Assembly (NCBI RefSeq): GCF_021513195.1
Contig: NZ_CP090974.1
Coordinates: 2,802,001 to 2,866,000, forward strand
DNA: 64,000 bases
Direction of reading: 5' to 3'
DNA from: Shewanella sp. OMA3-2
Lineage (GTDB): Bacteria > Pseudomonadota > Gammaproteobacteria > Enterobacterales > Shewanellaceae
Both the position numbers and the translations under genes were made by a program. Positions 568-61,573 of the stretch are shown one piece after another. The notes under the pieces are model-generated. The model searched no databases. It had not been told where the DNA came from and worked only from the letters and a program-made list of their open reading frames with translations. Each line of letters starts with the position of its first letter. Positions within the stretch are counted from its first letter, which is position 1.

Positions 568-2565
568 ATGATGAAACAATATCAACATAACCGTTATGCG
601 CTATCAATCATCACCGCAACGGCTCTACTAACACTGTCGGCTTGCTCAGACACTGCGCCTAACACTGCCGATTCAGCTAAGCAGATAATAGAGGCTAAAC
701 AAGGCGTTGCTAAACAAGATGCTGTTAAAGAAAACGGGCCGAGTAAAGAGTCAGCAAACAAATTTAGCCCTGAGTTGCCCCATAAAGCCGTGGTTTATCA
801 AGTATTCACTCGACTTTATGGCAACACCAACACAAGCAATAAACCTTGGGGCACCATTGATGAAAACGGCATTGGTAAATTCAGCGACTTTACCGACACC
901 GCATTGCAAGATATTAAATCATTAGGCACCACCCATATTTGGTATACCGGAGTCCCCCACCACGGGGTCATTAATGACTACAGTGCAATAGGTATTAGCA
1001 ATGACGACCCTGATGTGGTCAAAGGCCGTGCGGGTTCACCTTATGCGGTAAAAGACTATTACAATGTTAACCCTGACTTAGCAGATAATCCTGCTAACCG
1101 CTTAGCCGAGTTTGAATCGTTAATTGCCCGAACCCATCAACAAGGCATGAAGGTGATTATCGATATCGTACCTAACCATGTGGCGCGTAATTATCAATCT
1201 TTATCCTCGCCCGCAGGTGTAGAAGATTTTGGCGCTAAAGATGATAAAACCCAAACCTACAGTAAAAATAACAACTTCTATTATGTGATCGGCGAAAACT
1301 TTCAAGTCCCTGAGGCAAGTAATGGTTATCAACCACTTGGCGGCGATACTAATCCACTCAGTGACGGTTTGTTTACTGAGTCACCAGCTAAATGGACGGG
1401 CAATGGCTCACGTTTAGCCAAACCGGACGCTAATGACTGGTATGAAACAGTTAAAATTAATTATGGTGTTAAGCCCGATGGCAGCCATGATTTTCCTGCC
1501 TTGCCCAGTGGCTTTGACACAAAATCTGCCGCTGAACATTATCAATTTTGGCAATCGCAACCAAATGAGAAGATTCCTGATTCATGGCGTAAATTTGAAA
1601 ACATCACCCAATACTGGTTAGCCAAAGGTGTTGATGGGTTTCGTTACGACATGGCCGAAATGGTGCCCGTTGAATTTTGGAGCTATCTCAACAGCCACAT
1701 TAAACACACCAAACCCGATGCGTTCTTACTTGCAGAGGTATATAACCCAAGTCTTTATCGCGCCTACATTCAGCAAGGTAAAATGGATTACTTGTACGAT
1801 AAAGTCGACTTATACGACACCCTAAAGAACATCATTCAAAACAAAGCCAGTACCGCTCAAATTGCAACCGATCAGGCAAAAGTTGCTGATATTGAAGCGC
1901 ATATGCTGCACTTTTTAGAAAACCACGATGAACAGCGAATTAATACCGCAGACTTTGCTGGCAGCCCTGAAGCCGCCTTACCTGCTATGGTTATATCAAC
2001 CACATTAAGTCGCTCGCCGACACTAGTGTATTTTGGTCAGGATGTGGGCGAGCAAGGTGCAGAAAATGCCGGTTTTGGTCAGCCTACTCGCACCAGTATT
2101 TTTGATTATATCGGCGTACCAGCACATCAACGTTGGATGAATAACGGCAAGTTTGATGGTGGACAATCAACAGACCAAGAAAAAGCCCTGCGTCAATACT
2201 ATCAACGCCTGTTAAATTTAAGCCACAGCGCACCGGCATTACAGGGCGAATATCAGGAATTAGATACCACTCAGCGTCAACTTAACGTGGTCGGATATGA
2301 TGATAAAGTGTTTGCCTTTAGCCGTTATAATCAGCAGCAACAATTAATTATTGCCAGTAACTTTAGCCAGCATGAAGCCAAGCAATTTAACCTTGTATTA
2401 CCGCAAACATTAATCAAAACATGGCAAGTCAGTGAAAATAGATCATTAACCGACTTACTCACATCGCCACAAACGCCCTATTCATTAGCAATACAAGCTG
2501 ACGGCAGCGCAATAGTTGATATTAGCCTACAACCGCTACAATCTGTGATACTTGATCTTAAGTAA
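568..2565 (+). CDS. GH13 alpha-amylase, lipoprotein
   Basis: A 665-residue GH13 enzyme that should cut internal alpha-1,4 links of starch or maltodextrins outside the cytoplasm. The ATG at 568 is preferred over an upstream in-frame GTG at 523 because it gives a clean lipoprotein signal (hydrophobic stretch ending TLSAC, Cys26). All four GH13 motifs are visible: DIVPNHV (region I, about residue 199), GFRYDMAEM with nucleophile Asp361, LLAEVYNP with acid Glu390, and FLENHDEQR with Asp454. A C-terminal beta-sandwich follows. It lies 16 bp behind another GH13 gene, and a hairpin follows its stop. Anchoring to the inner face of the outer membrane or to the surface cannot be decided from sequence. 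Alternatives are other GH13 specificities such as maltogenic amylase. Confidence 0.9.
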   Translation: MMKQYQHNRYALSIITATALLTLSACSDTAPNTADSAKQIIEAKQGVAKQDAVKENGPSKESANKFSPELPHKAVVYQVFTRLYGNTNTSNKPWGTIDENGIGKFSDFTDTALQDIKSLGTTHIWYTGVPHHGVINDYSAIGISNDDPDVVKGRAGSPYAVKDYYNVNPDLADNPANRLAEFESLIARTHQQGMKVIIDIVPNHVARNYQSLSSPAGVEDFGAKDDKTQTYSKNNNFYYVIGENFQVPEASNGYQPLGGDTNPLSDGLFTESPAKWTGNGSRLAKPDANDWYETVKINYGVKPDGSHDFPALPSGFDTKSAAEHYQFWQSQPNEKIPDSWRKFENITQYWLAKGVDGFRYDMAEMVPVEFWSYLNSHIKHTKPDAFLLAEVYNPSLYRAYIQQGKMDYLYDKVDLYDTLKNIIQNKASTAQIATDQAKVADIEAHMLHFLENHDEQRINTADFAGSPEAALPAMVISTTLSRSPTLVYFGQDVGEQGAENAGFGQPTRTSIFDYIGVPAHQRWMNNGKFDGGQSTDQEKALRQYYQRLLNLSHSAPALQGEYQELDTTQRQLNVVGYDDKVFAFSRYNQQQQLIIASNFSQHEAKQFNLVLPQTLIKTWQVSENRSLTDLLTSPQTPYSLAIQADGSAIVDISLQPLQSVILDLK

Positions 2566-2593
2566 CAATAAAGTAAAGACCATAACTTCCGAC

Positions 2594-2630
2594 TCCCACC
2601 CTTAGAAACATTCGAGGGTGGGCTTTGTAC
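2594..2630 (+). terminator. Probable terminator after amylase operon
   Basis: An 8-bp GC-rich stem (CCCACCCT at 2595-2602, AGGGTGGG at 2615-2622) with a 12-nt loop is followed by a short T-containing run (CTTTGT). It lies 29 bp after the amylase stop. The U-tract is weak, so termination strength is uncertain. Confidence 0.5.
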
Positions 2631-2943
2631 GTTGATATTAAAGCTTGATAAATCATAATAAAGTCTGTTATGAATCCCTAAAGGTGTAACACCCATTATA
2701 ATGGTTAATATCTAAGATTATGTGGGTGAACTGAAAGAAAGCATGGTTCTTATAGGAACTGTGTTTTCATTGCTGATTAGGATCGGATAGGGGCGATATT
2801 GGCAAACTCATTTCTGCCCCAAAGTTACTTAGAATCAAAACTCTATTTAACAATGCTTGCCTTCGTTTTCCATACAAAATTTAATTGATACTGCTCTTTT
2901 ACAGAGACCATTTTTTACTGCCTAGATTGCATAATCTAATGAG

Positions 2944-2959
2944 CTGATTTTATATACAG
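2944..2959 (+). promoter_or_regulatory. LexA-type box with adjacent -10 (left integron-like copy)
   Basis: CTGATTTTATATACAG fits the CTG-N10-CAG LexA operator and is directly followed by TATAAT (2961-2966). The segment 2941-3020 resembles 19388-19480, where a better LexA box is again followed by TATAAT. The surrounding 2631-3024 stretch holds no gene I can support. In integrons a LexA box sits at the intI promoter next to attI; here IS21 separates this box from the attI-like site at 5772-5851. Confidence 0.5.
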
Positions 2960-3098
2960 TTATAATGCATTTTGGTTTAATTTATATAAAACAAGATAAT
3001 AAGTAAATCCAAGTGCGTAATACCATGATGCCGATCGGTCAATACCATTCAAGCCGATCACTTTTTTGTTCGCCAGTAGACCTCCGTAAAATCTAGCT

Positions 3099-3857
3099 TC
3101 AGTGATCGGCTTCAGTCAAGGTATTTAGTTTTTTTCGCATCGATTCGCCTTTTAATTCCAACTTTATTGCTCCGTGAACAAGTCGATCTAGAATCGCATC
3201 AGCATGTGTCGATTCTCCTATCATTTCATACCAATTTTCGATCGGTAATTGACTGGCAATTAATGTCGATTTTGTATCATATCTTGCATCAATTAATTCC
3301 AATAAATCACTACGTTGTTGAGCCGTTAATGGCTCTAATCCCCAATCATCTAAGATCAGTAAATTAGCAGAGCTAAGCTTGTTGATCAGTTTTCGATAAC
3401 TACCATCGGCTTGCGCTAAGAACATCTTTTCTAATAGCTCCTTGAGCCTAAAATAATAAACGCTACTCCCTTGTTGGCAGTGGTTTTGACCAAGAGCGCA
3501 AGCGAGGTAAGTTTTGCCACACCCCGTTGCTCCCGTAATCAAAATATTTTGGTGAAGGCGAAGCCATTCACCTTGTGCTAATGAACGGATCTGAGTTTTA
3601 TCGAGTTGTCGTGCTGCGCCATAGTTGAGTTGAGCAAGCGTGCCGCCAACTCTGAACTTTGCTTGTCGAGTTAGGCGGTCAATTTTACGCTGGTCACGCT
3701 GCGTTATTTCATGCTCAAGCAATAAACTTAGCCGCTCTTCGAAGCTTTGTTCTACGTATAGATTAGGTTGTTCAAGTTGCTGTAATAGCGCATCACGTAT
3801 GCCGCTTAGCTTTAAGTTACTTAACTGGTTATTGACTTGTTGATTGATATTTTTCAT
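3099..3857 (-). CDS. istB: IS21 helper ATPase IstB
   Basis: A 252-residue AAA+ ATPase of the IstB/DnaC type that loads or remodels the IstA transposase on target DNA. The Walker A motif is GATGCGKTYLA (about residues 108-118) and Walker B is LLILDDWG (about 170). An N-terminal helical segment (about 1-60) is typical of IstB and length is normal. It starts 28 bp downstream of istA on the same strand, as in all IS21 elements. The frame is intact, so the element could be active. Confidence 0.95.
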   Translation of the reverse strand: MKNINQQVNNQLSNLKLSGIRDALLQQLEQPNLYVEQSFEERLSLLLEHEITQRDQRKIDRLTRQAKFRVGGTLAQLNYGAARQLDKTQIRSLAQGEWLRLHQNILITGATGCGKTYLACALGQNHCQQGSSVYYFRLKELLEKMFLAQADGSYRKLINKLSSANLLILDDWGLEPLTAQQRSDLLELIDARYDTKSTLIASQLPIENWYEMIGESTHADAILDRLVHGAIKLELKGESMRKKLNTLTEADH

Positions 3858-5635: not shown

Positions 5636-5771
5636 TGAGAATATGCATCAAGGTAGTAAGTATCAATTATGCGATTAAACTTAACTGATTGATATTGTAG
5701 TAAATAAATTTTATGAACACTTTATTTAGGCTACATCAGTTTGTTCTTGGGTTTTGCGAATATCTTATTGC

Positions 5772-5851
5772 TTTACATCAACGATATTGCAAATGTAGGA
5801 TGATATTGATCAATAACTTTATTTGGCGAGCCGTTCAATAAGCTATTAAAC
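5772..5851 (+). other. attI-like sequence, left copy (probably inactive)
   Basis: TTTACATCAA, AAATGTAGGATGATATT, ATCAATAACTT and CCGTTCAATAAGCT occur here in the same order as at 19593-19680, where they run into the integron core GTTATATGC. Here the core position reads ATTAAAC, with A instead of the G next to the crossover point, so the site is probably dead. I infer a diverged attI copy. The rest of 5640-6158 holds no confident gene. Confidence 0.45.
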
Positions 5852-13942: not shown

Positions 13943-15076
13943 ATGCTTTGCATCAAATCTACATCTGACTTTGAAATTGAAAGTGTAAAGTACCCTAACT
14001 TTCCCCTCTTAACGTGGGAAGTTGATAATACAAAGCTAGGGATTGAATCTGGAATGCTTTGTGTTGAAGCAATGCAATTCCTTATTTATGAGTGCTTGAA
14101 ACGTGGGCGAGTAGACAGTGAAAATACTTGGTGGACTTATGCCCGCCACTTAAATCAATTCCTGACATTCTGTGAATATAACGGTTTAGATTGGCGAAAT
14201 ATTTCTGAAAGTAGTGAAGATGAAATGTTAGTCAGCGCCTATCGTGACCTTTGCGTTGGTGAGTTTGGCATGTCGGTCAATTCAACCAACCAACACCTAA
14301 GAACGATCGTGCGGTTTTACAGTTATGGTGTTGGCAAGTGGTTTGACTCATTGCCTTACTCACTAGAGTCGGTTTCGGTGCGAAAGGGTCAGCAGTTTTT
14401 GGCTCATACCGAGAGAAATGGTGGCAAAAAATACAGCTCGGACTTGATGATGAAAACTTTTGAAAAGAAAGCAGAGTTTTTATCTGCCTATGAAGTTCAA
14501 GAATTGTTATCTTCGATTGAAAACCCAACGCTCAAACTGATGGTTCGTTTATGTCTACAGACAGGAATTAGGCGTAAGGAGCTACTGCTTTTCCCCCTAC
14601 ACGTAATACGAAAACCTTCTGGAAACCAAACTTACTACGAAGTAAATATCTCACGGACTAAGGGTGAGAAAGAGCGCAAAATACACATTCCATCAAGGCT
14701 AATGGAAGATTTGTGGCGTTATGTAAATGAAGCTCGTTTTCAGAAGCAACAAGAATCAGGAGTGAACTCAGATTGCCTTTTCTTAACCTCTGATGGTCAA
14801 GAATGGGCTTCGCAAGGCTCTGCCTTTGGAAAGGCGCTCAAATCTCTGAATCTGCCCTTTCATGTGGCTCCGCACATGTTAAGACACTCCTATGCAACTC
14901 ACATGCTCAAAGGGCTCTTAGAGCGCAAAAGCAGTAAGTTTGAGCCATTGATGTATCTACAAAGCCGTCTTGGACATTCCAGTATTACCACCACAATGAA
15001 ATATTTACATCTGGTTAATGATTTGGTGGACGACCTGTCGATTGAGTATCAACAACAAATTGATGCAATTGTGTAG
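13943..15076 (+). CDS. Tyrosine recombinase (IntA-like, first of module)
   Basis: A 377-residue site-specific recombinase with an N-terminal SAM-like DNA-binding domain (about 45-150) and a complete catalytic domain: Arg210 (TGIRRKE), His311 and Arg314 (HMLRHSY), His345 (LGHSS) and Tyr354 (MKYLH). The ATG at 13943 follows TTTGGGGTAATT, which gives a reasonable ribosome site. The next gene begins 8 bp after the stop. Upstream (13728-13942) an AGCATA...TATGCT inverted repeat (13891-13913) could be an operator or recombination arm site. The protein is inferred to cut and rejoin the element ends together with the third gene. Confidence 0.9.
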   Translation: MLCIKSTSDFEIESVKYPNFPLLTWEVDNTKLGIESGMLCVEAMQFLIYECLKRGRVDSENTWWTYARHLNQFLTFCEYNGLDWRNISESSEDEMLVSAYRDLCVGEFGMSVNSTNQHLRTIVRFYSYGVGKWFDSLPYSLESVSVRKGQQFLAHTERNGGKKYSSDLMMKTFEKKAEFLSAYEVQELLSSIENPTLKLMVRLCLQTGIRRKELLLFPLHVIRKPSGNQTYYEVNISRTKGEKERKIHIPSRLMEDLWRYVNEARFQKQQESGVNSDCLFLTSDGQEWASQGSAFGKALKSLNLPFHVAPHMLRHSYATHMLKGLLERKSSKFEPLMYLQSRLGHSSITTTMKYLHLVNDLVDDLSIEYQQQIDAIV

Positions 15077-15084
15077 GCAGTAGC

Positions 15085-16722
15085 ATGGCAAGACAACGAA
15101 AATACCTCACCATCAACAAAGATAAGATCAGGAAAACTTCGGCAGTAGAGCTAACCGTTGACGCCCTCCAAAGCCAAGGCTTAGTGCGAGCAATACACCC
15201 AGTTGTTACCTACCCAAATCTGGGTTCTAAAGGTGGCAATGGCGTAAACTTCGACTTTACCTCTTATTACGGCAAAGGCTACGACGACATCACGAATCGA
15301 GTTTACTACACTGCAAAGGCGTTACTGAGAAACACTAATGCTTTTACTGAAGAAACTCAGCACACGTATTTAAAGAATGGCTTTCGCTATTTTGCACAAT
15401 ATCTTGAGTTATTCAGGCACTCAGTCAGGGGAGATTTAACGCAAGATGACATTACGCCTAGACTGATTGAACAATATTTGCTGCACCTCAAAGGTAGTGA
15501 GTTTAAACCTAGCTTTCAAAAAGCTCTCTACACGCACCTCAAGTCATTGTTAGTCCGTATGAAAGAAAAAGGCTACTGGCCACTTGTCGATGACATCAAC
15601 CTTAATAGTGATTTTTTCCCCAAGAATCCTTTTCCAAACTCCGGTAAACATGCAAAAAGTGAAAGATCACTCTCTCCCTATGAGAAAAGACAGGTTGTTG
15701 TTGCGTTAAAGCAAGCGGTTAAACCTATTTATCAAAAGAGAGAGTCATTGTCGGGTTACGAATTAACGTTGTGCCTACTTGCTGTGGCAATTCAAACGGG
15801 TATCAATACTTCACCACTGCTTAACATGACAACGGATGCTTTAACTGATCATCCACTTAAAGATAATCGAAAGCTTTTAACTGTGTTTAAAAAGCGGGGT
15901 AATGCAAAACAATTACATAACTTGCGCAAATCAGAAAACGTTGAGGTAGTACAAGGGGTAAAACTAGATGTGGCTTACCTGATCGATACCATTATTCAGT
16001 TAAGCTCGTCATTGAGGCAAGTGAGTGGTAGCAATTTAGTATTCTTATATGTCGCTAGCAACAGTAAAAGCGCTATTACCTCTCTGTCAGACTTATCGCT
16101 GCACTTCAACATAAAAAAATTCATCAAAGAAAACGACCTAAAGGATGAAGATGGACGCACAATTAAGCTTAATATCAGTCGTATTCGCAAAACTTTCATC
16201 AATAGCATGTACGAACTGAGTGGTGAAAGTTTGTTGATTGCAGCACAGCAAGCTAAACATAGTGGAACAAGTTCACTTGACTACTATTTGCAAGCCCCTG
16301 AGCAATCAAAACGTAACCTAGGTTTGATGGGTGAAATACGAGTCAAAGAGCTAACTTGCGATGCTCCAAGCGTTCCTGTCGGCCATTGTAAAGACCCGAA
16401 AAATGGGGATAAAGCACCGAAAGATGGAACGTTCTGTAATGACTTCTTAGGGTGTTTCCGTTGTAAGAGCTTCGTTATTACAGGCAATGATTTGTATAAG
16501 CTCTTTAGCTTCTATTGGGCAATAATTCGTAACCGTGATGAATTTGGTCGTAAAGACTGGAAGCGGCACCTAAAGAACGTGCTCAGAATTGTGGATGAAG
16601 AGGTTGTGCCTGAGTTTGCCAAGCTTGGTCAATTGCAGCATGTCAATGCTGAAAAGGAACGAGCAAGAACCAATCCACATCCATACTGGCAAAATCTCGA
16701 TATGTTAAAGGTGACACAATGA
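15085..16722 (+). CDS. Tyrosine-recombinase-fold protein lacking catalytic residues (Tfp-like)
   Basis: A 545-residue protein between two recombinases. The catalytic-domain outline is recognisable, but the first Arg motif reads AIQTGINTSPLLNM, with Asn where Arg is expected, and the HxxR box reads SRIRKTF without the His. The C-terminal LDYYLQ could still hold a Tyr. A cysteine cluster follows (VGHCKDP...GTFCNDFLGCFRCKSF, about residues 432-468), probably a zinc-binding site, which is common in the long members of such trios. It is therefore probably a structural or architectural subunit rather than an active recombinase. Its stop overlaps the start of the next gene (ATGA). Confidence 0.7.
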   Translation: MARQRKYLTINKDKIRKTSAVELTVDALQSQGLVRAIHPVVTYPNLGSKGGNGVNFDFTSYYGKGYDDITNRVYYTAKALLRNTNAFTEETQHTYLKNGFRYFAQYLELFRHSVRGDLTQDDITPRLIEQYLLHLKGSEFKPSFQKALYTHLKSLLVRMKEKGYWPLVDDINLNSDFFPKNPFPNSGKHAKSERSLSPYEKRQVVVALKQAVKPIYQKRESLSGYELTLCLLAVAIQTGINTSPLLNMTTDALTDHPLKDNRKLLTVFKKRGNAKQLHNLRKSENVEVVQGVKLDVAYLIDTIIQLSSSLRQVSGSNLVFLYVASNSKSAITSLSDLSLHFNIKKFIKENDLKDEDGRTIKLNISRIRKTFINSMYELSGESLLIAAQQAKHSGTSSLDYYLQAPEQSKRNLGLMGEIRVKELTCDAPSVPVGHCKDPKNGDKAPKDGTFCNDFLGCFRCKSFVITGNDLYKLFSFYWAIIRNRDEFGRKDWKRHLKNVLRIVDEEVVPEFAKLGQLQHVNAEKERARTNPHPYWQNLDMLKVTQ

Positions 16723-18521
16723 GTTTGATTGAGTTGATACTAACGGACGTTGAGTTTGCGGAGCAGCAATGTTCAAAGCCTAATCAAAGCACACTAGAGC
16801 GAGCGATTGATGGCACCCTGACGGGCATTGTAACCTATGTAAAGTTAGCCAACGGTCACTATCAAGTTTACTCTCGATATGAAGAAGAACTATGGAAATT
16901 TCCTGCTGCTAAAGGGACTAAAGGCACCACCAAAAGTAACCTTACACTTAATTTTGGCACAATAAATAACCCTGAAATGAAACAAATGGCAAAATGGGTC
17001 ATATGGAATAAATTAAAAGAAGGATTAGCGGTCAACTCTTTACTACATTCTTTAAGTTCTCTTAAAGGCTACTTTAAATGGGCCTTGAGTTCAGACACAA
17101 CTGCAACGCATGGCTTGACTGCTTTTACCTCTAGTGCTTATGTTAAGTATGTGAATAGACTAAGCGCAAAGCGGAATGGCGAAATAAAGCCTCTTTCGTT
17201 AACAACAAAAACGCTTAAGTTCCTCGCAGTGGAAAACCTTTATCAGTGTTGCAAAGCATTTTATTTTGTTAAAGAGCATCCTTGGCCTGGTTCTGGTGCC
17301 AATATGCAGGCAGGACTGATTGGAGAGGCCGCTCAAAAAGCGAAAACCAAACCCAAAACCCCTATCATCCCTAACGAAGTGCTAATTCCACTCTGTAAGT
17401 TTACAAAGTCATGTTTAGACAGGGCTGATGAAATTTTGGCATCAAAAGGTAAGCGTGAATCATTACTGCTGCGAGACAGTTGCATCTTCTGGTTGCTACT
17501 CACAACAGGTATGCGTATCCATGAGGTTTTAGGTATTAAACGCGGAGCGTATCGCAGTGAGACAAGAGATGAGGTGACGTATTACTACATTGAAACCGCG
17601 TCAGAGAAGACCCATACGGGATTAGCTGAATGGATTGCGCCAGAGATTGCAACTCAAGCTATCGACATTCTTGGTCGTTATAGTGCGCCATTGCAAAAGC
17701 AGCTTGAAAATGACTTATCAAAAGCAAGGGATAGTCAAGACCATGTGGAAGTTCATAGGCTAGAAGAAATCTCAGACCATATTTGTTTGTCGGTATCTAA
17801 AAAAAGTAACGCTATTAGCCTGTTGTCTGGATGTACAATTACTGTTCATAGGTTGCCTAATTTATGTCAACAGATAGATTGCAACTGGAATTTGTCAGCG
17901 CACCAGTTTCGCCGCACCTTTGCCAACTATGCAGTGCATTCTGAATTGGGTGATTTAAGGGCACTAAAAGACCATTTTAAACACTGGTCAATCACCATGA
18001 CGGCTCTGTATGCCTTTAACGAAGATTTAGACGCAGAATTATTCGAAGAACTGCTCCGAGAAAAGTATTTGATCGAAGAAGAAATCAAGCAAGACTGGTT
18101 TGAACTAGACACACCGATTACGGGTGGCGATATGGCTAAAAACATCAAGAAAGTCCGTGCAGATGGAGAGCTAATTAAAACTTTCGGCTCTCTCAGTGAT
18201 ATGGCTAAAGCCTACTCTAGCTCTATTCCTATCCGTTCAACAGGTATTGGATGGTGTACCAATGATGATGAATGTAAGTGCGGTAAGCCCGATAGCTGCG
18301 AGAGCGGAATTGTAGATAAACGGCATCTTCCCTACTGGGAGGGGATGCTTGTTCAGCAAATAAAACTTATGCAGTTGGATGATATAGGGGAAGCAGGTAG
18401 AGATGCAGCTAGGAAAGGTATGGAACGCTGTGAAAAGGTATTGAGTGCTTTAGGTATCGATGTTGAAGCCATGAAGCAGAAGTTTAGCCAAAGAGATCTA
18501 ATCGAGGTAGAGAATGTCTAA
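16719..18521 (+). CDS. Large tyrosine recombinase (IntB-like, third of module)
   Basis: A 600-residue recombinase with an N-terminal DNA-binding region (to about residue 210) and the full catalytic set: Arg266 (TGMRIHEV), His395 and Arg398 (AHQFRRTF), His422 (KHWS) and Tyr431 (TALYAF). A C-terminal cysteine cluster (WCTNDDECKCGKPDSCESG, about 508-526) suggests a zinc knuckle. It overlaps the upstream gene by 4 bp and the downstream gene by 8 bp, so the four genes are translationally coupled. Length is close to Tn554 TnpB and other long members. Intact. Confidence 0.88.
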   Translation: MSLIELILTDVEFAEQQCSKPNQSTLERAIDGTLTGIVTYVKLANGHYQVYSRYEEELWKFPAAKGTKGTTKSNLTLNFGTINNPEMKQMAKWVIWNKLKEGLAVNSLLHSLSSLKGYFKWALSSDTTATHGLTAFTSSAYVKYVNRLSAKRNGEIKPLSLTTKTLKFLAVENLYQCCKAFYFVKEHPWPGSGANMQAGLIGEAAQKAKTKPKTPIIPNEVLIPLCKFTKSCLDRADEILASKGKRESLLLRDSCIFWLLLTTGMRIHEVLGIKRGAYRSETRDEVTYYYIETASEKTHTGLAEWIAPEIATQAIDILGRYSAPLQKQLENDLSKARDSQDHVEVHRLEEISDHICLSVSKKSNAISLLSGCTITVHRLPNLCQQIDCNWNLSAHQFRRTFANYAVHSELGDLRALKDHFKHWSITMTALYAFNEDLDAELFEELLREKYLIEEEIKQDWFELDTPITGGDMAKNIKKVRADGELIKTFGSLSDMAKAYSSSIPIRSTGIGWCTNDDECKCGKPDSCESGIVDKRHLPYWEGMLVQQIKLMQLDDIGEAGRDAARKGMERCEKVLSALGIDVEAMKQKFSQRDLIEVENV

Positions 18522-18921
18522 CCAGAAAGAAAAGTCGACACATAAAGCGGTAAGACTTGCCATTATTCGCATAGAAAAAGCTCGGCCTAATGTTGTCTCT
18601 GATAAGCGTAAAATGAGTGTTGCTGCCGTTGCCGAAGAAGCTGGCGTAAGCCGAGCGTTGATTCATCGCGATTGCCCTGACCTGTTAGAGCGTATTAAAG
18701 GTGGTGTGAATAAAGCTATTCGACAGCAGCGTGATGCCAAGCAAATTGAGCTGAATGAATACAAAGAGCGCAATCGAGAACTTCGAACTGAGGTCGAGGA
18801 GTTAAAAGCCATGTTATCTAAGGTTCAATCGCAAAACGCTACGTTAATACGGAAAAATATGGTGTTAAGTGGTGTTAGTGCTAAAAACAGCAATGTTACA
18901 CAGTTATATTGTAGTAAGTAA
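18514..18921 (+). CDS. Small HTH/coiled-coil protein (Srap/TnpC-like)
   Basis: A 135-residue protein overlapping the end of the third recombinase gene by 8 bp. Residues 28-50 (KMSVAAVAEEAGVSRALIHRDC) form a helix-turn-helix, and residues 75-115 (NEYKERNRELRTEVEELKAML) are a strong coiled coil. The same layout is seen in TnpC of Tn554 and in the small auxiliary gene of strand-biased integrative elements, where such proteins orient or stimulate recombination. The DNA-binding role is inferred. Confidence 0.7.
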   Translation: MSNQKEKSTHKAVRLAIIRIEKARPNVVSDKRKMSVAAVAEEAGVSRALIHRDCPDLLERIKGGVNKAIRQQRDAKQIELNEYKERNRELRTEVEELKAMLSKVQSQNATLIRKNMVLSGVSAKNSNVTQLYCSK

Positions 18922-19390
18922 TTGTATTAAAAGCTAAAATCAATAGATTTACTGAGATTACTTGATGGTTTAATTTCAATAAAATCGCAACAACAAACAA
19001 ATCCATATAAAACAATTGCATATAGTTAGTTACATGTAACGTGGTATTTATAAAGTTTGACCATTTATATTATGGTTTGATAATTTTTGGCATTGCTTAC
19101 AGGCAGAAACGGGTTAGGAGTAACACATTTTTGCCTCGTTATTTGTTTGCCATTTTTAACAAAATCAGCGTCATGGTGCTTCGCCCACACCAGACCAAAG
19201 GGGCAAAACGCACGCTTTTTTTTACAAAAGAAGCCCTTTAGAAACACTCAGTGCTCCAGACGAAAAATGCTGAAAAGCGCATAATTTTCGATGTGGTTCG
19301 ATCCAGCTTTAAACCTCATTTATAACCGGCTTACAAATTGCTGCTAAATATCTAGTGTCAGCTATATCTCCCACCTTTATGTAGCATACA
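18922..19390. other. Gene-free stretch downstream of recombination module
   Basis: No convincing gene is seen on either strand; short frames at 19041-19284 overlap one another on both strands and lack ribosome sites and family features. Notable are the perfect 12-bp palindrome GTTACATGTAAC (19029-19040) and a T-rich run at 19214-19221. No intI remnant could be read leftward from the LexA box at 19391, where an integron integrase gene would be expected. Confidence 0.5.
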
Positions 19391-19413
19391 CTGTATATAA
19401 AAACAGTTATAAT
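19391..19413 (+). promoter_or_regulatory. LexA box overlapping promoter next to attI
   Basis: CTGTATATAAAAACAG (19391-19406) is a near-consensus LexA operator, followed by a TATAAT -10 (19408-19413). The -35 (CATACA, 19385-19390) is weak, so LexA would cover the promoter. SOS control next to attI is the established arrangement for integron integrase promoters in Vibrio and Shewanella. Here no integrase gene remains, and the visible -10 points toward the cassettes. A diverged copy lies at 2944-2966. Confidence 0.65.
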
Positions 19414-19592
19414 GGTTGTTGGCATGTTTTAAGTTGAATCGGCTAATAAGTAAACTAAAGTAGTACTTGTAATAAGTAGATACTTCTGTAATCAATTGAA
19501 ATTGATGCATTTTTTTATTTTTTGTCGAATGTTTAGTCCACTTTTAACGCGCAAGCTCGCTTCTATTTGTCAGTGGAGTTAAATAAAACCGC

Positions 19593-19690
19593 TTTACATC
19601 AATAAGATACTAAATGTAGGATGATATTAATCAATAACTTAAACGACCGACTTTAAATTTAATTGGCCGTTCAATAAGCTGTTATATGCT
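19593..19690 (+). other. Integron attI-like recombination site
   Basis: The stretch ends in AAGCTGTTATATGC, with the crossover expected between G19681 and T19682. Support comes from the first cassette: its 3' R'' core, GCATATAAC once the intron is removed, is the exact complement of GTTATATGC here. The upstream sequence is repeated in diverged form at 5772-5851. It lacks the folded arms of an attC, so attI is the better call, but no intI gene lies beside it. Confidence 0.6.
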
Positions 19691-19861
19691 CTTTGACTTC
19701 ATCGTTATCGAAATATTTAATTGGATAATAAAGAGTAAGTTTAGACCTACGGTAATATTCTCTGTACTGCCCCAAATGGCAAAGTAAATTAAGGTGCTGT
19801 AAATCGATATTGGTATAAGTAGCGATATTATTCTGTGATATTTATTTTGGTTTAAGTTCAT
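19682..19861 (-). CDS. Small membrane protein in reverse-oriented cassette
   Basis: A 59-residue protein, MNLNQNKYHRIISLLIP..., with two hydrophobic segments (about 11-30 and 36-52) and a KSKSI tail. The ATG on the minus strand at 19861 is preceded by a GAGGT ribosome site 5 bp away. Its TAA stop uses exactly the first three bases of the cassette (TTA on the plus strand at 19682-19684). The gene runs against the usual cassette direction, so it needs its own promoter. A perfect 16-bp palindrome GTTTCACGCGTGAAAC (19939-19954) about 80 nt upstream of the start is a candidate operator. Function is unknown; size and orientation recall toxin-like or stress microproteins. Confidence 0.55.
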   Translation of the reverse strand: MNLNQNKYHRIISLLIPISIYSTLIYFAIWGSTENITVGLNLLFIIQLNISITMKSKSI

Positions 19862-19938
19862 GTGTACCTCGTTAGATTATTGTTATCTAATGGGTAGGTT
19901 AATAGTTATTCAGTTTTAGTTGGTCATTACATAAGCAT

Positions 19939-19958
19939 GTTTCACGCGTGAAACTCAA
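19939..19958 (-). promoter_or_regulatory. 16-bp palindrome, candidate operator/promoter of the small membrane protein
   Basis: GTTTCACGCGTGAAAC is a perfect palindrome lying next to TTGAGT (minus strand, 19958-19953), a possible -35. The possible -10 elements (TTATGT or TGTAAT, 19926-19934) are weak or badly spaced. The position upstream of the reverse cassette gene suggests autoregulation. Confidence 0.4.
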
Positions 19959-19987
19959 GTTAATATGTACTGTAAATAGAGCATATA

Positions 19988-21936
19988 ATCGGGTAGCCGG
20001 AGGTATCTAGCCTCCAGCCCCCACACCACCCTGCATGCGGCTCCGCACAGGGCGGTTCATTTAGAACTCCTAACTCACTTTTGGGTTAGGATAATGAACT
20101 GCGATCCATCCATCTCTTAGTGAATATAATCCTGCTTTCTTCAGGTACTCATTACTCAGCGCTTGCTGTATCCCTGGTGTTTTCGAACTTCGCCATGGAC
20201 CTTTGCTTGTGATCCCACAACCAACAGCCACTTGGATCCTGACGCCACGCTTAAGTAAGTTTTGTACCTTAGTCCGTGGTTTTCGCCACTGACGCCAGTA
20301 ACACATACGAACACGACGTCGGATCCAATGGTCTAAATCGACACACCCTTGATAAGCGTTAGCGATGCCAAAATAATTGATCCAGCCTTGCATGTATTGA
20401 CGCACTTTAAATAGCTGATAACTCATACTCACGCCCCAATTTCGGTTCGTTAGTCGTCTCATCTTTTGTTTGAAAATGTGTAATGTTTTAGCATGCCACT
20501 GGATCTTGCCTCGGTTAAATGTAAACCCAAGAAACTTGCTTTGAGCGACCTTAACCACTTGGCTTTTCTGTTCATTTACAACCAGTTTTAACTTAGTGGC
20601 AAGGTATTGAGTAATACTCTTGAGTACCCGTTCGCCAGCGCGTTGAGATTTTACCAATATGATAAAATCGTCCGCGTAGCGGGCGAATTTGTGCTCTCGG
20701 CTTTCCAGCTCTTTATCCAGACTATCCAACATAATGTTAGAGAGTAATGGCGAGAGTGGACCGCCTTGAGGCACACCTTCAAAGCTTGCTTCAAATTGGT
20801 CATTGACCATCACCCCTGCTCGTAGGTACTTACCGATAAGCGCCAACAGACGCTTATCCTGTACCTTGCTCCTCAGCTGAGTCATCAAGAGATCATGATT
20901 AACTCGGTCAAAGAACTTAGACAGATCAACATCAACGGCAAATTTGCGTTTCTGTTTGATGATATCCCTGACTTGCAGTACCGCTTGTTTAGCATTTCTG
21001 TTCGGCCTAAAGCCAAAGCTATTAGTCGAGAAGAATGGGTCAAACAGTGGCGTGAGTATTTGTGCAATAGCTTGCTGTATCACACGGTCAATGACGTTAG
21101 GGATCCCCAATTTGCGTTTACCGCCATCGGGTTTGTCGATCTCTACGCGCCTGACCGCTGAGGGTTGGTATTCACCTCGCTCTAATTGAGATTTACACTG
21201 TTGCCAGCCGCCTTGTTGCATCCAGAGCGGGAAGGCTTCGATGGTCATGCCATCGATGCCCGCTGCACCTTTATTGGCTTTAACTTGACGCCAAGCTCGG
21301 TGTAGATTTTCAGGTTCGAGCAGTTGTTGAAATAGATCGCGGTTGAAGGCCGGTTGCATATCAATACGCTGCCGATAGTAATCGTCTGGCGACGTAGTGG
21401 GTATCGACAAGTTTGACAAGACTCCTCCTTCTTCTAAATGTTCAGGCCTTCACCATGTCCCAACCATTACGATGGGCGTTGGGCTACTATGCCGTCTGCT
21501 GACTTCTGCTTAATCACATGTCAAGTTACCTCGTCATGCGCTATCGGTTTCCATCTGATTCGCTCTTTTCAGTCGATGAAATTGAAAAGCCAAGGCACTT
21601 AATAAACCAGAGCCTTACTGGTTAATGACCAATCGCGTGTTAAGCAGATCTCCCCAGATAAGAACATGAACTTTCTTTGCACTGCTGCATCATTTACGGT
21701 GGCCATTAGATCACGTGGTTTCGTCGTCTTGTGCCAACTCACCTCTAGCCTACGCCTCATATGATGTTCTTGTTCATCAGCTCGCAAATTTGCTAGCGGC
21801 TTCCTCCGGACCTAACCTCGCGATTAAGCCCTTGCCATTCGCTAGTAGTTAACGTTTAATAACAGTATGTTATTTAAACGGTGACCTTCCTACAGAGGAC
21901 TTTCACCTCATTAGTTCATGCCCATGCTGGGCGTAC
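19988..21936 (-). mobile_element. Group IIC-attC intron, copy 1
   Basis: On the minus strand the 5' end reads GTACGCCCAGCATGGGCATG and continues AATGAGGTGAAAGTCCTCT, typical of a group II intron start. The 3' end shows a domain V/VI-like region (GAGCCGCATGCAGGGTGG then CTGGAGGCTAGATACCTCC) and ends in ACCCGAT. Length is 1949 nt; the boundary could shift 2 nt if GTGTACG is taken as the start. It encodes one intact reverse transcriptase. It interrupts the R'' end of the cassette A attC, in antisense orientation. Confidence 0.9.
20070..21419 (-). CDS. ltrA: Group II intron reverse transcriptase/maturase (copy 1)
   Basis: A 449-residue protein with reverse transcriptase blocks (KANKGAAGIDGMTIEAF near 48, VDVDLSKFFDRVNHD near 157, GVPQGGPLSPLLSNIMLD near 215, catalytic RYADDFIILV near 243), followed by the maturase X domain (NRNWGVSMSYQLFKVRQYMQGWINYFG, about 324-350). 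There is no HNH endonuclease domain, as expected for class IIC, which targets folded DNA. It promotes splicing and reverse splicing of the host intron. The frame is intact and the translated protein is identical to that of copy 2. Confidence 0.97.
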   Translation of the reverse strand: MSNLSIPTTSPDDYYRQRIDMQPAFNRDLFQQLLEPENLHRAWRQVKANKGAAGIDGMTIEAFPLWMQQGGWQQCKSQLERGEYQPSAVRRVEIDKPDGGKRKLGIPNVIDRVIQQAIAQILTPLFDPFFSTNSFGFRPNRNAKQAVLQVRDIIKQKRKFAVDVDLSKFFDRVNHDLLMTQLRSKVQDKRLLALIGKYLRAGVMVNDQFEASFEGVPQGGPLSPLLSNIMLDSLDKELESREHKFARYADDFIILVKSQRAGERVLKSITQYLATKLKLVVNEQKSQVVKVAQSKFLGFTFNRGKIQWHAKTLHIFKQKMRRLTNRNWGVSMSYQLFKVRQYMQGWINYFGIANAYQGCVDLDHWIRRRVRMCYWRQWRKPRTKVQNLLKRGVRIQVAVGCGITSKGPWRSSKTPGIQQALSNEYLKKAGLYSLRDGWIAVHYPNPKVS

Positions 21937-21998
21937 ACAAGGCGTTCAAAAGGACTAAAAACAGTTGGCCACTGCTCGTGCCTCGCTGATTTTAGCCA
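21937..21998 (+). other. 62-nt attC fragment between the two introns
   Basis: The bases ACAAGGCGTTC...GATTTTAGCCA between the intron copies form the left arm and apical part of the cassette A attC. CAGTTGGC and TTTTAGCCA align with CAGTTGG and TTTTAACCA of the next attC at 24611-24710. The fragment cannot fold into a full attC unless the introns are removed. Confidence 0.75.
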
Positions 21999-23947
21999 AT
22001 CGGGTAGCCGGAGGTATCTAGCCTCCAGCCCCCACACCACCCTGCATGCGGCTCCGCACAGGGCGGTTCATTTAGAACTCCTAACTCACTTTTGGGTTAG
22101 GATAATGAACTGCGATCCATCCATCTCTTAGTGAATATAATCCTGCTTTCTTCAGGTACTCATTACTCAGCGCTTGCTGTATCCCTGGTGTTTTCGAACT
22201 TCGCCATGGACCTTTGCTTGTGATCCCACAACCAACAGCCACTTGGATCCTGACGCCACGCTTAAGTAAGTTTTGTACCTTAGTCCGTGGTTTTCGCCAC
22301 TGACGCCAGTAACACATACGAACACGACGTCGGATCCAATGGTCTAAATCGACACACCCTTGATAAGCGTTAGCGATGCCAAAATAATTGATCCAGCCTT
22401 GCATGTATTGACGCACTTTAAATAGCTGATAACTCATACTCACGCCCCAATTTCGGTTCGTTAGTCGTCTCATCTTTTGTTTGAAAATGTGTAATGTTTT
22501 AGCATGCCACTGGATCTTGCCTCGGTTAAATGTAAACCCAAGAAACTTGCTTTGAGCGACCTTAACCACTTGGCTTTTCTGTTCATTTACAACCAGTTTT
22601 AACTTAGTGGCAAGGTATTGAGTAATACTCTTGAGTACCCGTTCGCCAGCGCGTTGAGATTTTACCAATATGATAAAATCGTCCGCGTAGCGGGCGAATT
22701 TGTGCTCTCGGCTTTCCAGCTCTTTATCCAGACTATCCAACATAATGTTAGAGAGTAATGGCGAGAGTGGACCGCCTTGAGGCACACCTTCAAAGCTTGC
22801 TTCAAATTGGTCATTGACCATCACCCCTGCTCGTAGGTACTTACCGATAAGCGCCAACAGACGCTTATCCTGTACCTTGCTCCTCAGCTGAGTCATCAAG
22901 AGATCATGATTAACTCGGTCAAAGAACTTAGACAGATCAACATCAACGGCAAATTTGCGTTTCTGTTTGATGATATCCCTGACTTGCAGTACCGCTTGTT
23001 TAGCATTTCTGTTCGGCCTAAAGCCAAAGCTATTAGTCGAGAAGAATGGGTCAAACAGTGGCGTGAGTATTTGTGCAATAGCTTGCTGTATCACACGGTC
23101 AATGACGTTAGGGATCCCCAATTTGCGTTTACCGCCATCGGGTTTGTCGATCTCTACGCGCCTGACCGCTGAGGGTTGGTATTCACCTCGCTCTAATTGA
23201 GATTTACACTGTTGCCAGCCGCCTTGTTGCATCCAGAGCGGGAAGGCTTCGATGGTCATGCCATCGATGCCCGCTGCACCTTTATTGGCTTTAACTTGAC
23301 GCCAAGCTCGGTGTAGATTTTCAGGTTCGAGCAGTTGTTGAAATAGATCGCGGTTGAAGGCCGGTTGCATATCAATACGCTGCCGATAGTAATCGTCTGG
23401 CGACGTAGTGGGTATCGACAAGTTTGACAAGACTCCTCCTTCTTCTAAATGTTCAGGCCTTCACCATGTCCCAACCATTACGATGGGCGTTGGGCTACTA
23501 TGCCGTCTGCTGACTTCTGCTTAATCACATGTCAAGTTACCTCGTCATGCGCTATCGGTTTCCATCTGATTCGCTCTTTTCAGTCGATGAAATTGAAAAG
23601 CCAAGGCACTTAATAAACCAGAGCCTTACTGGTTAATGACCAATCGCGTGTTAAGCAGATCTCCCCAGATAAGAACATGAACTTTCTTTGCACTGCTGCA
23701 TCATTTACGGTGGCCATTAGATCACGTGGTTTCGTCGTCTTGTGCCAACTCACCTCTAGCCTACGCCTCATATGATGTTCTTGTTCATCAGCTCGCAAAT
23801 TTGCTAGCGGCTTCCTCCGGACCTAACCTCGCGATTAAGCCCTTGCCATTCGCTAGTAGTTAACGTTTAATAACAGTATGTTATTTAAACGGTGACCTTC
23901 CTACAGAGGACTTTCACCTCATTAGTTCATGCCCATGCTGGGCGTAC
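21999..23947 (-). mobile_element. Group IIC-attC intron, copy 2
   Basis: Same 1949-nt intron as copy 1, shifted by 2011 bp; no difference was noticed by eye. It interrupts the same attC at a second TTGT/T position, on the 3' side of the apical arm. Removing it restores AGCCAACAATTTTTAGCC, which aligns with ACCAACTGATATTTGCCC in the attC of cassette B. Near-perfect identity means recent duplication or two recent insertions. Confidence 0.9.
22081..23430 (-). CDS. ltrA: Group II intron reverse transcriptase/maturase (copy 2)
   Basis: A 449-residue protein identical in translation to the copy 1 product, with YADD catalytic motif, GVPQGGPLSPLLSN and maturase X domain all present, and no endonuclease domain. 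The start context matches copy 1 (ACTTGTCAAACTTGTCGATA reading through the start, complement at about 23430). Two intact copies 2 kb apart in direct orientation form a substrate for homologous recombination that would delete one intron plus the 62-nt attC fragment. Confidence 0.97.
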   Translation of the reverse strand: MSNLSIPTTSPDDYYRQRIDMQPAFNRDLFQQLLEPENLHRAWRQVKANKGAAGIDGMTIEAFPLWMQQGGWQQCKSQLERGEYQPSAVRRVEIDKPDGGKRKLGIPNVIDRVIQQAIAQILTPLFDPFFSTNSFGFRPNRNAKQAVLQVRDIIKQKRKFAVDVDLSKFFDRVNHDLLMTQLRSKVQDKRLLALIGKYLRAGVMVNDQFEASFEGVPQGGPLSPLLSNIMLDSLDKELESREHKFARYADDFIILVKSQRAGERVLKSITQYLATKLKLVVNEQKSQVVKVAQSKFLGFTFNRGKIQWHAKTLHIFKQKMRRLTNRNWGVSMSYQLFKVRQYMQGWINYFGIANAYQGCVDLDHWIRRRVRMCYWRQWRKPRTKVQNLLKRGVRIQVAVGCGITSKGPWRSSKTPGIQQALSNEYLKKAGLYSLRDGWIAVHYPNPKVS

Positions 23948-23999
23948 ACAATTTTTAGCCTCTTAACAGGGGCGTTAGTTTACAAAAAGGATTTTGGTA

Positions 24000-24605
24000 G
24001 TGTTTGAAAGTATTGCGATCTATTCAGGGTTAATTGCAACAATCTGGATCTTCATCGGTGTTTATGTAGCAAGTAGGTTTTATGCTGGTTACAGCCATTC
24101 TAAGCAATTTTGTAGTGAGTTAGGTGCAACTGGTAGCCCAACTGAAAAATTGTCTCCTTTAATTAATAATTATCCACTTGGTTTTCTATTTTGCTTCTTC
24201 GGTTGGTATTTGGCACAACTCTCAAATGTTTCAGCTTTAGTGAATGTTGCGGGTTGGTTAGTTATAGCTCATGGTGTTGGTACTTGGGTCGCAGGCTATT
24301 TCCCTATGGACGCCGATCCATTTACTAAGAATCCAACTTTTAATTGTAAGGTACATTCTTGGGCTGGTTTTATCATGTTGCTTTCGTTAGTTGTTGCACC
24401 AATATTAATTGCTATAAGTCCAACAACTGAGATTATCCCATTATATTTCCGTATTTTTTCACTGGTTTCTGTTATGGCTGCTGTTTATTATCTTTTTGCT
24501 ATGGCTAAAGCCGTAAAATCCCAAAGCAATCCTGGCATCCATCAGCGTATTTCATATGGTTTTCAGCTAATTTGGCTAAGTGCTTTTTCACTAGTATTGG
24601 TGTAA
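24000..24605 (+). CDS. DUF998 membrane protein (integron cassette B)
   Basis: A 201-residue membrane protein with six hydrophobic segments. The pattern GWLVIAHGVGTWVAGYFPMDADPF...KVHSWAGFIMLL matches the DUF998 family, whose function is unknown. GTG at 24000 is preferred: AAGGA at 23987-23991 sits at good distance, whereas the TTG at 23994 is too close. The cassette runs from 23975 to G24704. Its own R'' core AACTAAC (24611-24617) is the exact complement of its 5' end GTTAGTT, proof of cassette structure. No own promoter was found; expression may come from the attI side, but about 4 kb of introns lie between. Confidence 0.8.
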   Translation: MFESIAIYSGLIATIWIFIGVYVASRFYAGYSHSKQFCSELGATGSPTEKLSPLINNYPLGFLFCFFGWYLAQLSNVSALVNVAGWLVIAHGVGTWVAGYFPMDADPFTKNPTFNCKVHSWAGFIMLLSLVVAPILIAISPTTEIIPLYFRIFSLVSVMAAVYYLFAMAKAVKSQSNPGIHQRISYGFQLIWLSAFSLVLV

Positions 24606-24610
24606 TTGTA

Positions 24611-24710
24611 AACTAACAAGCAAATTAATCAGGACAAATAACAGTTGGTTTTTGCTCCTGCGTCGCTTATTTTAACCAACTGATATTTGCCCATTATTTG
24701 GGCGTTAGGG
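24611..24710 (+). other. attC site of cassette B
   Basis: R'' AACTAAC at 24611-24617; R' GGGCGTTAGGG with core GTTAGGG at 24704-24710. The central arms CAGTTGG (from 24642) and CCAACTG (about 24676) pair perfectly over a T-rich loop, as in Vibrio-type repeats. Length is 100 nt. The complementarity of R'' to the cassette's own start identifies it as a functional-looking site. Confidence 0.85.
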
Positions 24711-61283: not shown

Positions 61284-61426
61284 TTTTACTTTTTTACTTT
61301 TTTATAATAAATTAATTATTTGATAAATAATAAGTTTATTCGATAAGGCTAAAGCATTTAATATAAAAAAGTAAATAATTGATGTTTTTTTAGGCAAGAA
61401 TTAAAAGCGCTGACTATAATTTGTGC

Positions 61427-61516
61427 AGAGATTAACTCCTCAACTCTAGCGCACGGCTCTGCAAAGAGCCATTTCCCTAGACCCAAGACAATCGGATCGT
61501 TTTGGGTCTTTTTTTT
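61427..61516 (+). ncRNA. Probable small regulatory RNA
   Basis: A consensus -10 (TATAAT, 61415-61420) with a possible -35 (TAGGCA, 61391-61396) precedes about 90 nt without a frame. This contains a hairpin GGCTCT-GCAA-AGAGCC (61455-61470), a single-stranded-looking ATTTCCCT, and a strong terminator stem AGACCCAA/TTGGGTCT (61479-61486, 61502-61509) with eight T. This promoter-hairpin-terminator layout between convergent genes is typical of an Hfq-type sRNA. I do not recognise a named family. Part of the 362-bp gap 61212-61573. Confidence 0.55.
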
Positions 61517-61573
61517 GTCAAAAATTTATCATTTATAGATTAAAAAGTCTTATTTAACCTGAACTCGGGTTAT

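Follow-up and report, generated by a model that had tools for sequence, protein, structure and literature searches.

The window analysed here, 64,000 nt long, covers positions 2802001-2866000 of the genome of Shewanella sp. OMA3-2, which consists of one contig of 4,092,736 bases and is 99.97% complete. It holds an array of gene cassettes preceded by an attI-like leader. The attC site of the first cassette is interrupted by two group II introns, A and B, each with its own reverse transcriptase gene (Table 1). As the genome is a single contig, the intron pair does not lie at a contig break.

Table 1. Features of the doubly interrupted attC site and its surroundings (window coordinates).
Feature	Position	Strand	Basis
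attI-like leader before the first cassette	19235-19684	+	sequence matches; two short pieces also at 5770-5848
First cassette of the array, its attC carrying both introns; longest open reading frame 59 residues, minus strand	19682-19980	+	boundary by G/TT rule
attC left end (R'' side), 3' exon of intron A	19979-19987	.	flank comparison, complement of cassette start
Intron A, 1949 nt, complete group IIC intron occupying the canonical R'' site	19988-21936	-	repeat comparison, Rfam
Intron A reading frame, reverse transcriptase/maturase, 449 residues, RVT_1 and GIIM	20070-21419	-	reading frame, domain searches
attC middle, 62 nt, a short exon separating the introns; comprises part of the L' arm, the loop, the L'' arm and the site A TTGT	21937-21998	-	
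Intron B, 1949 nt, identical to A, within the L' arm of this attC	21999-23947	-	repeat comparison, Rfam
Intron B reading frame, reverse transcriptase/maturase, translation identical to that of A	22081-23430	-	reading frame, 0 mismatches
attC right end, on the L' and R' side; contains the site B TTGT and is the 5' exon of intron B	23948-23983	.	
Small imperfect hairpin GCC.CT/AG.GGC, stem end 10 nt before site B	23958-23973	-	fold, -1.5 kcal/mol, not better than chance
Second cassette: DUF998 reading frame 23994-24605, uninterrupted attC-like end at about 24704	23975-24704	+	boundaries by eye

The introns are direct repeats in the same orientation, 2011 nt from start to start, and both are antisense to the cassettes. 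Compared base by base, they show no mismatch over 1954 nt (TTGT, the 1949-nt intron and T), and the identity breaks off sharply at either end of this stretch. On the minus strand the order is the same at both copies: TTGT, then the intron, GTACGCCC...CTACCCGAT, then T. A first-pass annotation had described just such a pair, offset by 2011 bp, antisense, with identical proteins, DNA that looked identical and both insertion points reading TTGT/T on the bottom strand; the alignment and the equal translations bear it out.

The open reading frame (ORF) of 449 residues, intact in each copy, matches TIGR04416 at 409 bits (cut-off 300). At an E-value threshold of 0.001 a domain search returned RVT_1 and GIIM only, and no endonuclease domain was found. 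The best relative of solved structure is the GsI-IIC reverse transcriptase (E 3e-123). With the class taken from this relative, the ORF is predicted to encode a class C group II reverse transcriptase/maturase devoid of an endonuclease domain. Each copy also matches the Rfam families group-II-D1D4-1, group-II-D1D4-3 and Intron_gpII (RF01998, RF02001 and RF00029, respectively).

Deleting both introns by script leaves a continuous stretch of 107 nt, about 102 nt of which extend from R'' to R'. It aligns through both insertion points without a gap to six distinct uninterrupted sites from the fetched loci, the best of which shows 85.6% identity over 97 nt; with L132, also among the six, the alignment has a gap of one base, three bases away from point B. 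The comparison gave 40 hits, and those beyond the six either miss a point or repeat one of them. The R'' sequence GCATATAAC is the reverse complement, over 9 nt, of the cassette start GTTATATGC at 19681. Both had been anticipated: the 62 nt between the introns and the outer flanks do rebuild one attC of roughly the length proposed, with an R'' core complementary to the cassette start. The R boxes are one base off consensus by eye, and the circle form, in which R' pairs with R'' over 9 bp, has a predicted folding energy of -18.6 kcal/mol. Judged by its sequence, the rebuilt site has the R''/R' complement, the palindromic arms and the G/TT crossover next to the following cassette that define an attC. 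Both introns occupy the attC of a single cassette, the first after the attI-like leader; as interrupted DNA, this attC would presumably not be used by the integrase.

Group IIC-attC introns are characterized in PMC7923331 by insertion at R'' of the attC bottom strand, antisense to the cassettes, with a hairpin 5' of the site. Both copies agree with this group in their place on the attC bottom strand, their antisense orientation and the target TTGT/T. Only copy A fits the R'' position; copy B lies inside the L' arm, where its 3' exon reads TTGGC. On the bottom strand of the rebuilt attC, TTGTT occurs exactly twice, with no occurrence on the top strand, and both points are filled.

We propose, with a probability of about 0.8, that the pair results from two independent retrotranspositions of one group IIC-attC intron into the only two bottom-strand TTGTT of a single attC. 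Two separate insertion events are likely and give the simplest account, in agreement with the earlier suggestion that one attC carries an intron of the IIC-attC type at two TTGT/T points. Copy A would have entered at R'', the canonical site immediately beyond the attC stem, and copy B at the second TTGTT, within the L' arm, presumably while the strand was out of its classical fold. Copy B may have entered an open single strand, its target strand probably being the lagging-strand template: GC skew, sampled in 20 segments of 20 kb, reverses its sign near 0.5 and 2.55 Mb, from which we infer that at this locus the lagging-strand template, which is single-stranded most often, is the minus strand. 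It may also have used an alternative fold, in which pairing of the second GGCTAAAA repeat instead of the first leaves TTGT unpaired. Splicing of both introns would restore the attC sequence in the RNA.

The same intron occurs elsewhere in this genome. Four further full copies, at 3604280 (L001), 3132773 (L002), 2511218 and 1020056 (L006), are identical to the pair, and a copy of 93% identity lies at 2604234. As six copies are identical, the element has likely been active recently. The flanks at 3604280, 3132773, 2511218 and 2604234 resemble attC bottom strands by eye. The copy at 1020056 (also fetched as L014, 3001-4954) stands behind a terminator-like stem, followed by TTTTTATTGT; the stem itself follows an ORF of 689 residues. 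This intron therefore does leave attC sites, and IIC-attC introns are stated to retain the ability to insert behind intrinsic terminators (PMC7923331). Insertions of one identical intron at a terminator and at attC sites in one genome supply both substrates that the cassette-formation model of Leon and Roy needs, as outlined in PMC7923331 and PMC3053210.

The six identical copies of 1949 nt are also ample substrate for RecA recombination or gene conversion, by which a tandem could form between introns of different attC sites. Recombination within introns merely swaps flanks, though, and since it cannot create the B junctions, a B-type insertion must have occurred all the same. In addition, the uninterrupted relatives align with the three attC pieces as with a single site; we consider this origin improbable. 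Folding of misjoined flanks, made with the 5' exons of five other copies, failed to tell them from the true ones, as the 62-nt piece folds independently. Long identical repeats are moreover a known cause of misassembly; that only one intron exists in reality is very improbable, as an assembly duplication would leave unexplained the unique 62-nt attC middle that fits both flanks, and the genome is both single-contig and nearly complete.

The folding of the attC was predicted with DNA energy parameters for naked DNA at 37 °C, a TTGT being called open when all four of its bases are unpaired. Site B, in the L' arm, is base-paired in the full fold. In the array form, the probability of being open is 0.27 for the TTGT of A, at R'', and 0.018 for that of B. 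The best structure of this form has -13.2 kcal/mol and the best one with B open -11.6, only 1.6 kcal/mol worse, as GGCTAAAA is repeated in the arm and its second copy is able to stand in for the first.

The hairpin upstream of A reaches -12.8 kcal/mol in the rebuilt site with the whole arm. The 36-nt upstream exon of B alone reaches -1.5, and 548 of 2000 dinucleotide shuffles are equally stable. Folding of the intron-free attC, put forward in the first-pass annotation, thus favours a hairpin target at A but makes B a poor one. We conclude that copy A represents an ordinary IIC-attC insertion. In copy B the 5-nt target, the strand and the orientation are preserved but the R'' position is not, and its hairpin is doubtful.

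Ranked among comparable insertions, the upstream hairpin of B is the third weakest, both of 86 sites with 90 nt scored and of 85 sites with 140 nt scored. The sites were drawn from this genome, from the loci listed by the genus searches and from relatives, of which the best 80 of 161 were taken; matches lacking the intron 5' end were not used, and the 140-nt set omits one match short of flank, seven not ending in TTGT and nine duplicates. Both sets include A and B, the exon of A being preceded there by intron B rather than by an intact attC. The ranking varies with the length scored: L028, L070, L075 and L100 looked weak at 90 nt, which is why it was redone at 140 nt, where the hairpins of L075 and L142 remain weaker than that of B.

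These predicted folds suggest that at site B the classical attC stem was not what was recognized. Entry into an alternative fold, an unfolded strand or double-stranded DNA would each be compatible with this, and copy B is in line with the view that a short match of intron-binding sites 1 and 3 (IBS1/IBS3) occasionally suffices.

Site B could instead have been read as an intrinsic terminator, formed by the small R'/L' hairpin and the 10 nt that follow it and end in TTGT. By eye, the G+C-rich stem of L006 is followed by TTTTTATTGT, 10 nt, much as the hairpin of B is followed by TAAAAATTGT. In the predicted fold, A/T pairs extend the stem of L006 to 4 nt from the site, and that of B stays at 10 nt. 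The 64-nt exon at L006, however, folds at -13.5 kcal/mol, against only -1.5 for the hairpin at B, which is common in shuffles and lacks a T run. A terminator-type insertion therefore seems unlikely, though worth keeping in mind.

The order of the two proposed insertions is close to even. The predicted energies lean slightly towards A first, since A leaves the target of B unchanged and B leaves A a weaker hairpin: with A already filled, B is open with a probability of 0.020, and if B was inserted first, the half of the attC remaining at A folds at -9.1 kcal/mol instead of -12.8, a small argument. Entry of B into the intact attC, followed by A through the remaining half, is a sub-case of two separate insertions and has somewhat less than even odds. 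The 62-nt remnant would fold by itself, its own GGCTAAAA taking over the pairing of the lost arm and site A staying open; hairpins as weak as -8.9 to -9.4 kcal/mol occur among the sites (L070, L085 and L100). With the end of intron B in front, the TTGT at A would still be open with a probability of 0.21, compared with 0.27 in the intact site, which raises the odds of this order.

Several observations weigh against two retrotranspositions as we describe them. The circle form would reverse the predicted openness: A, at 0.0016, is there more closed than B, at 0.0078, so that only in the array form, the one present at this locus, is B the buried site. The small hairpin preceding B does not reach significance, and 403 of the 548 shuffles that match it also end 4-15 nt from the site. 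A second TTGTT within 100 nt upstream is found in 9 of 86 exons; in L024, L068, L084 and L141 an intact one lies 59-65 nt upstream. Uncut right halves of this type of attC, in which the B point is undisturbed, are present at 20 places in 18 of 129 genomes of the genus. Use of the B point is rare, and sequence alone does not explain it. There is no clear strand bias among the copies, as A, B and the copy at 1020056 are on the lagging-strand template, those at 3604280 and 3132773 on the leading one, and those at 2511218 and 2604234 too close to a sign change of the skew to be placed.

Across the 129 genomes of the genus (one per species), 5' ends of the intron number 78, in 43 genomes. Among 118 3' ends matching CCGGCTACCCGATT, 115 continue with A (TTGT/TA; 53 genomes), a tally that includes fragments and the terminator copy and covers the junction base only, not the R'' position. 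The other three (in three genomes) are copy B and one each in G080 and G125, which by eye could not be placed in an attC arm. A search for tandem pairs with perfectly conserved intron ends and gaps of 15-75 nt was positive only in the present genome, both in the genus and among 394 genomes of the order, 30 of them from the genus. The genus genomes, with at most five candidates scored in each, yielded no empty or single-intron allele, so the comparison suggested in the first-pass annotation came out negative; the first cassette finds there only matches of 22-30 nt, to the leader end. No such allele was found in a plasmid collection either.

Two further arrangements of the intron were noted. In L031 (G011), two copies of the same orientation, at 1501-3452 and from 3990, are about 0.5 kb apart and therefore occupy neighbouring sites, not one attC. 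L013 has at 2823-2911 an 89-nt fragment of the intron 3' end, 99% identical and 1.09 kb before a complete copy, either a 5'-truncated insertion or a remnant.

A two-intron, three-exon unit might also reshape the attC. Skipping of the 62-nt exon in RNA, or recombination between the introns in DNA, would drop the central stem and yield a shortened attC. We regard this as a distant prospect, and the predicted shortened site was found in none of the 129 genomes; if true, the internal TTGTT points of this attC type would be where introns trim attC sites.

Compared with group IIC-attC introns of the S.ma.I2 type, as described in PMC7923331, the pair is alike in its antisense orientation, the TTGT/T target, copy A at R'', the hairpin 5' of A and the absence of a detected endonuclease domain; it differs by the second identical copy, at an internal TTGT in a stem arm of the same attC. 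With IIC introns behind intrinsic terminators the element shares the identical copy at L006, directly behind a terminator-like stem, whereas site B has neither a strong terminator hairpin nor a T run. In the twintrons and repeated homing clusters outlined for bacteria and archaea (Methanosarcina; PMC4424553), several introns are likewise stacked at one locus by repeated insertion; here, the second intron is not nested in the first but adjacent to it, separated by an exon of 62 nt. A IIC intron described as not belonging to the IIC-attC group also makes unusual use of attC, on the other strand. In the titles, abstracts and some passages of the openly licensed literature we found no report of two introns in one attC; the Shewanella arrays in Figure S2 of PMC9229058 could contain a similar case, and priority is uncertain.

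No integron integrase gene over the cut-off stands beside the attI-like leader. The only one in the genome is at 3136115-3137050, about 310 kb away, and the leader is 69.8% identical over 361 nt to the stretch between the first cassette and intI of the real integron (L189). It recurs in the chromosome at 87% identity (3608.9 kb) and at 78% over 152 nt (near 2.607 Mb), so that several attI-like leaders are found against one integrase gene over the cut-off. Directly upstream, at 13943-18921, three large consecutive ORFs and a small one form a set that we take to resemble a Tn554-type tnpABC set; two of the large ORFs match tyrosine recombinases. At 61365-61519 the window contains an ordinary pair of small RNAs on opposite strands, SdsR/RyeB and SraC/RyeA.

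The double insertion of a known mobile intron type in one attC is rare, and the filled site gave this attC no protection from a second insertion. The locus offers a natural comparison: the same intron, strand and 5-nt target, with a strong hairpin before one site and none before the other. The first-pass annotation went too far in presenting it as a test of any need for attC folding, as A has a fair hairpin in either order and B fits several modes of entry; one natural case cannot decide this need. The pair does make the amount of attC fold that a IIC-attC intron needs testable with a few point mutants.

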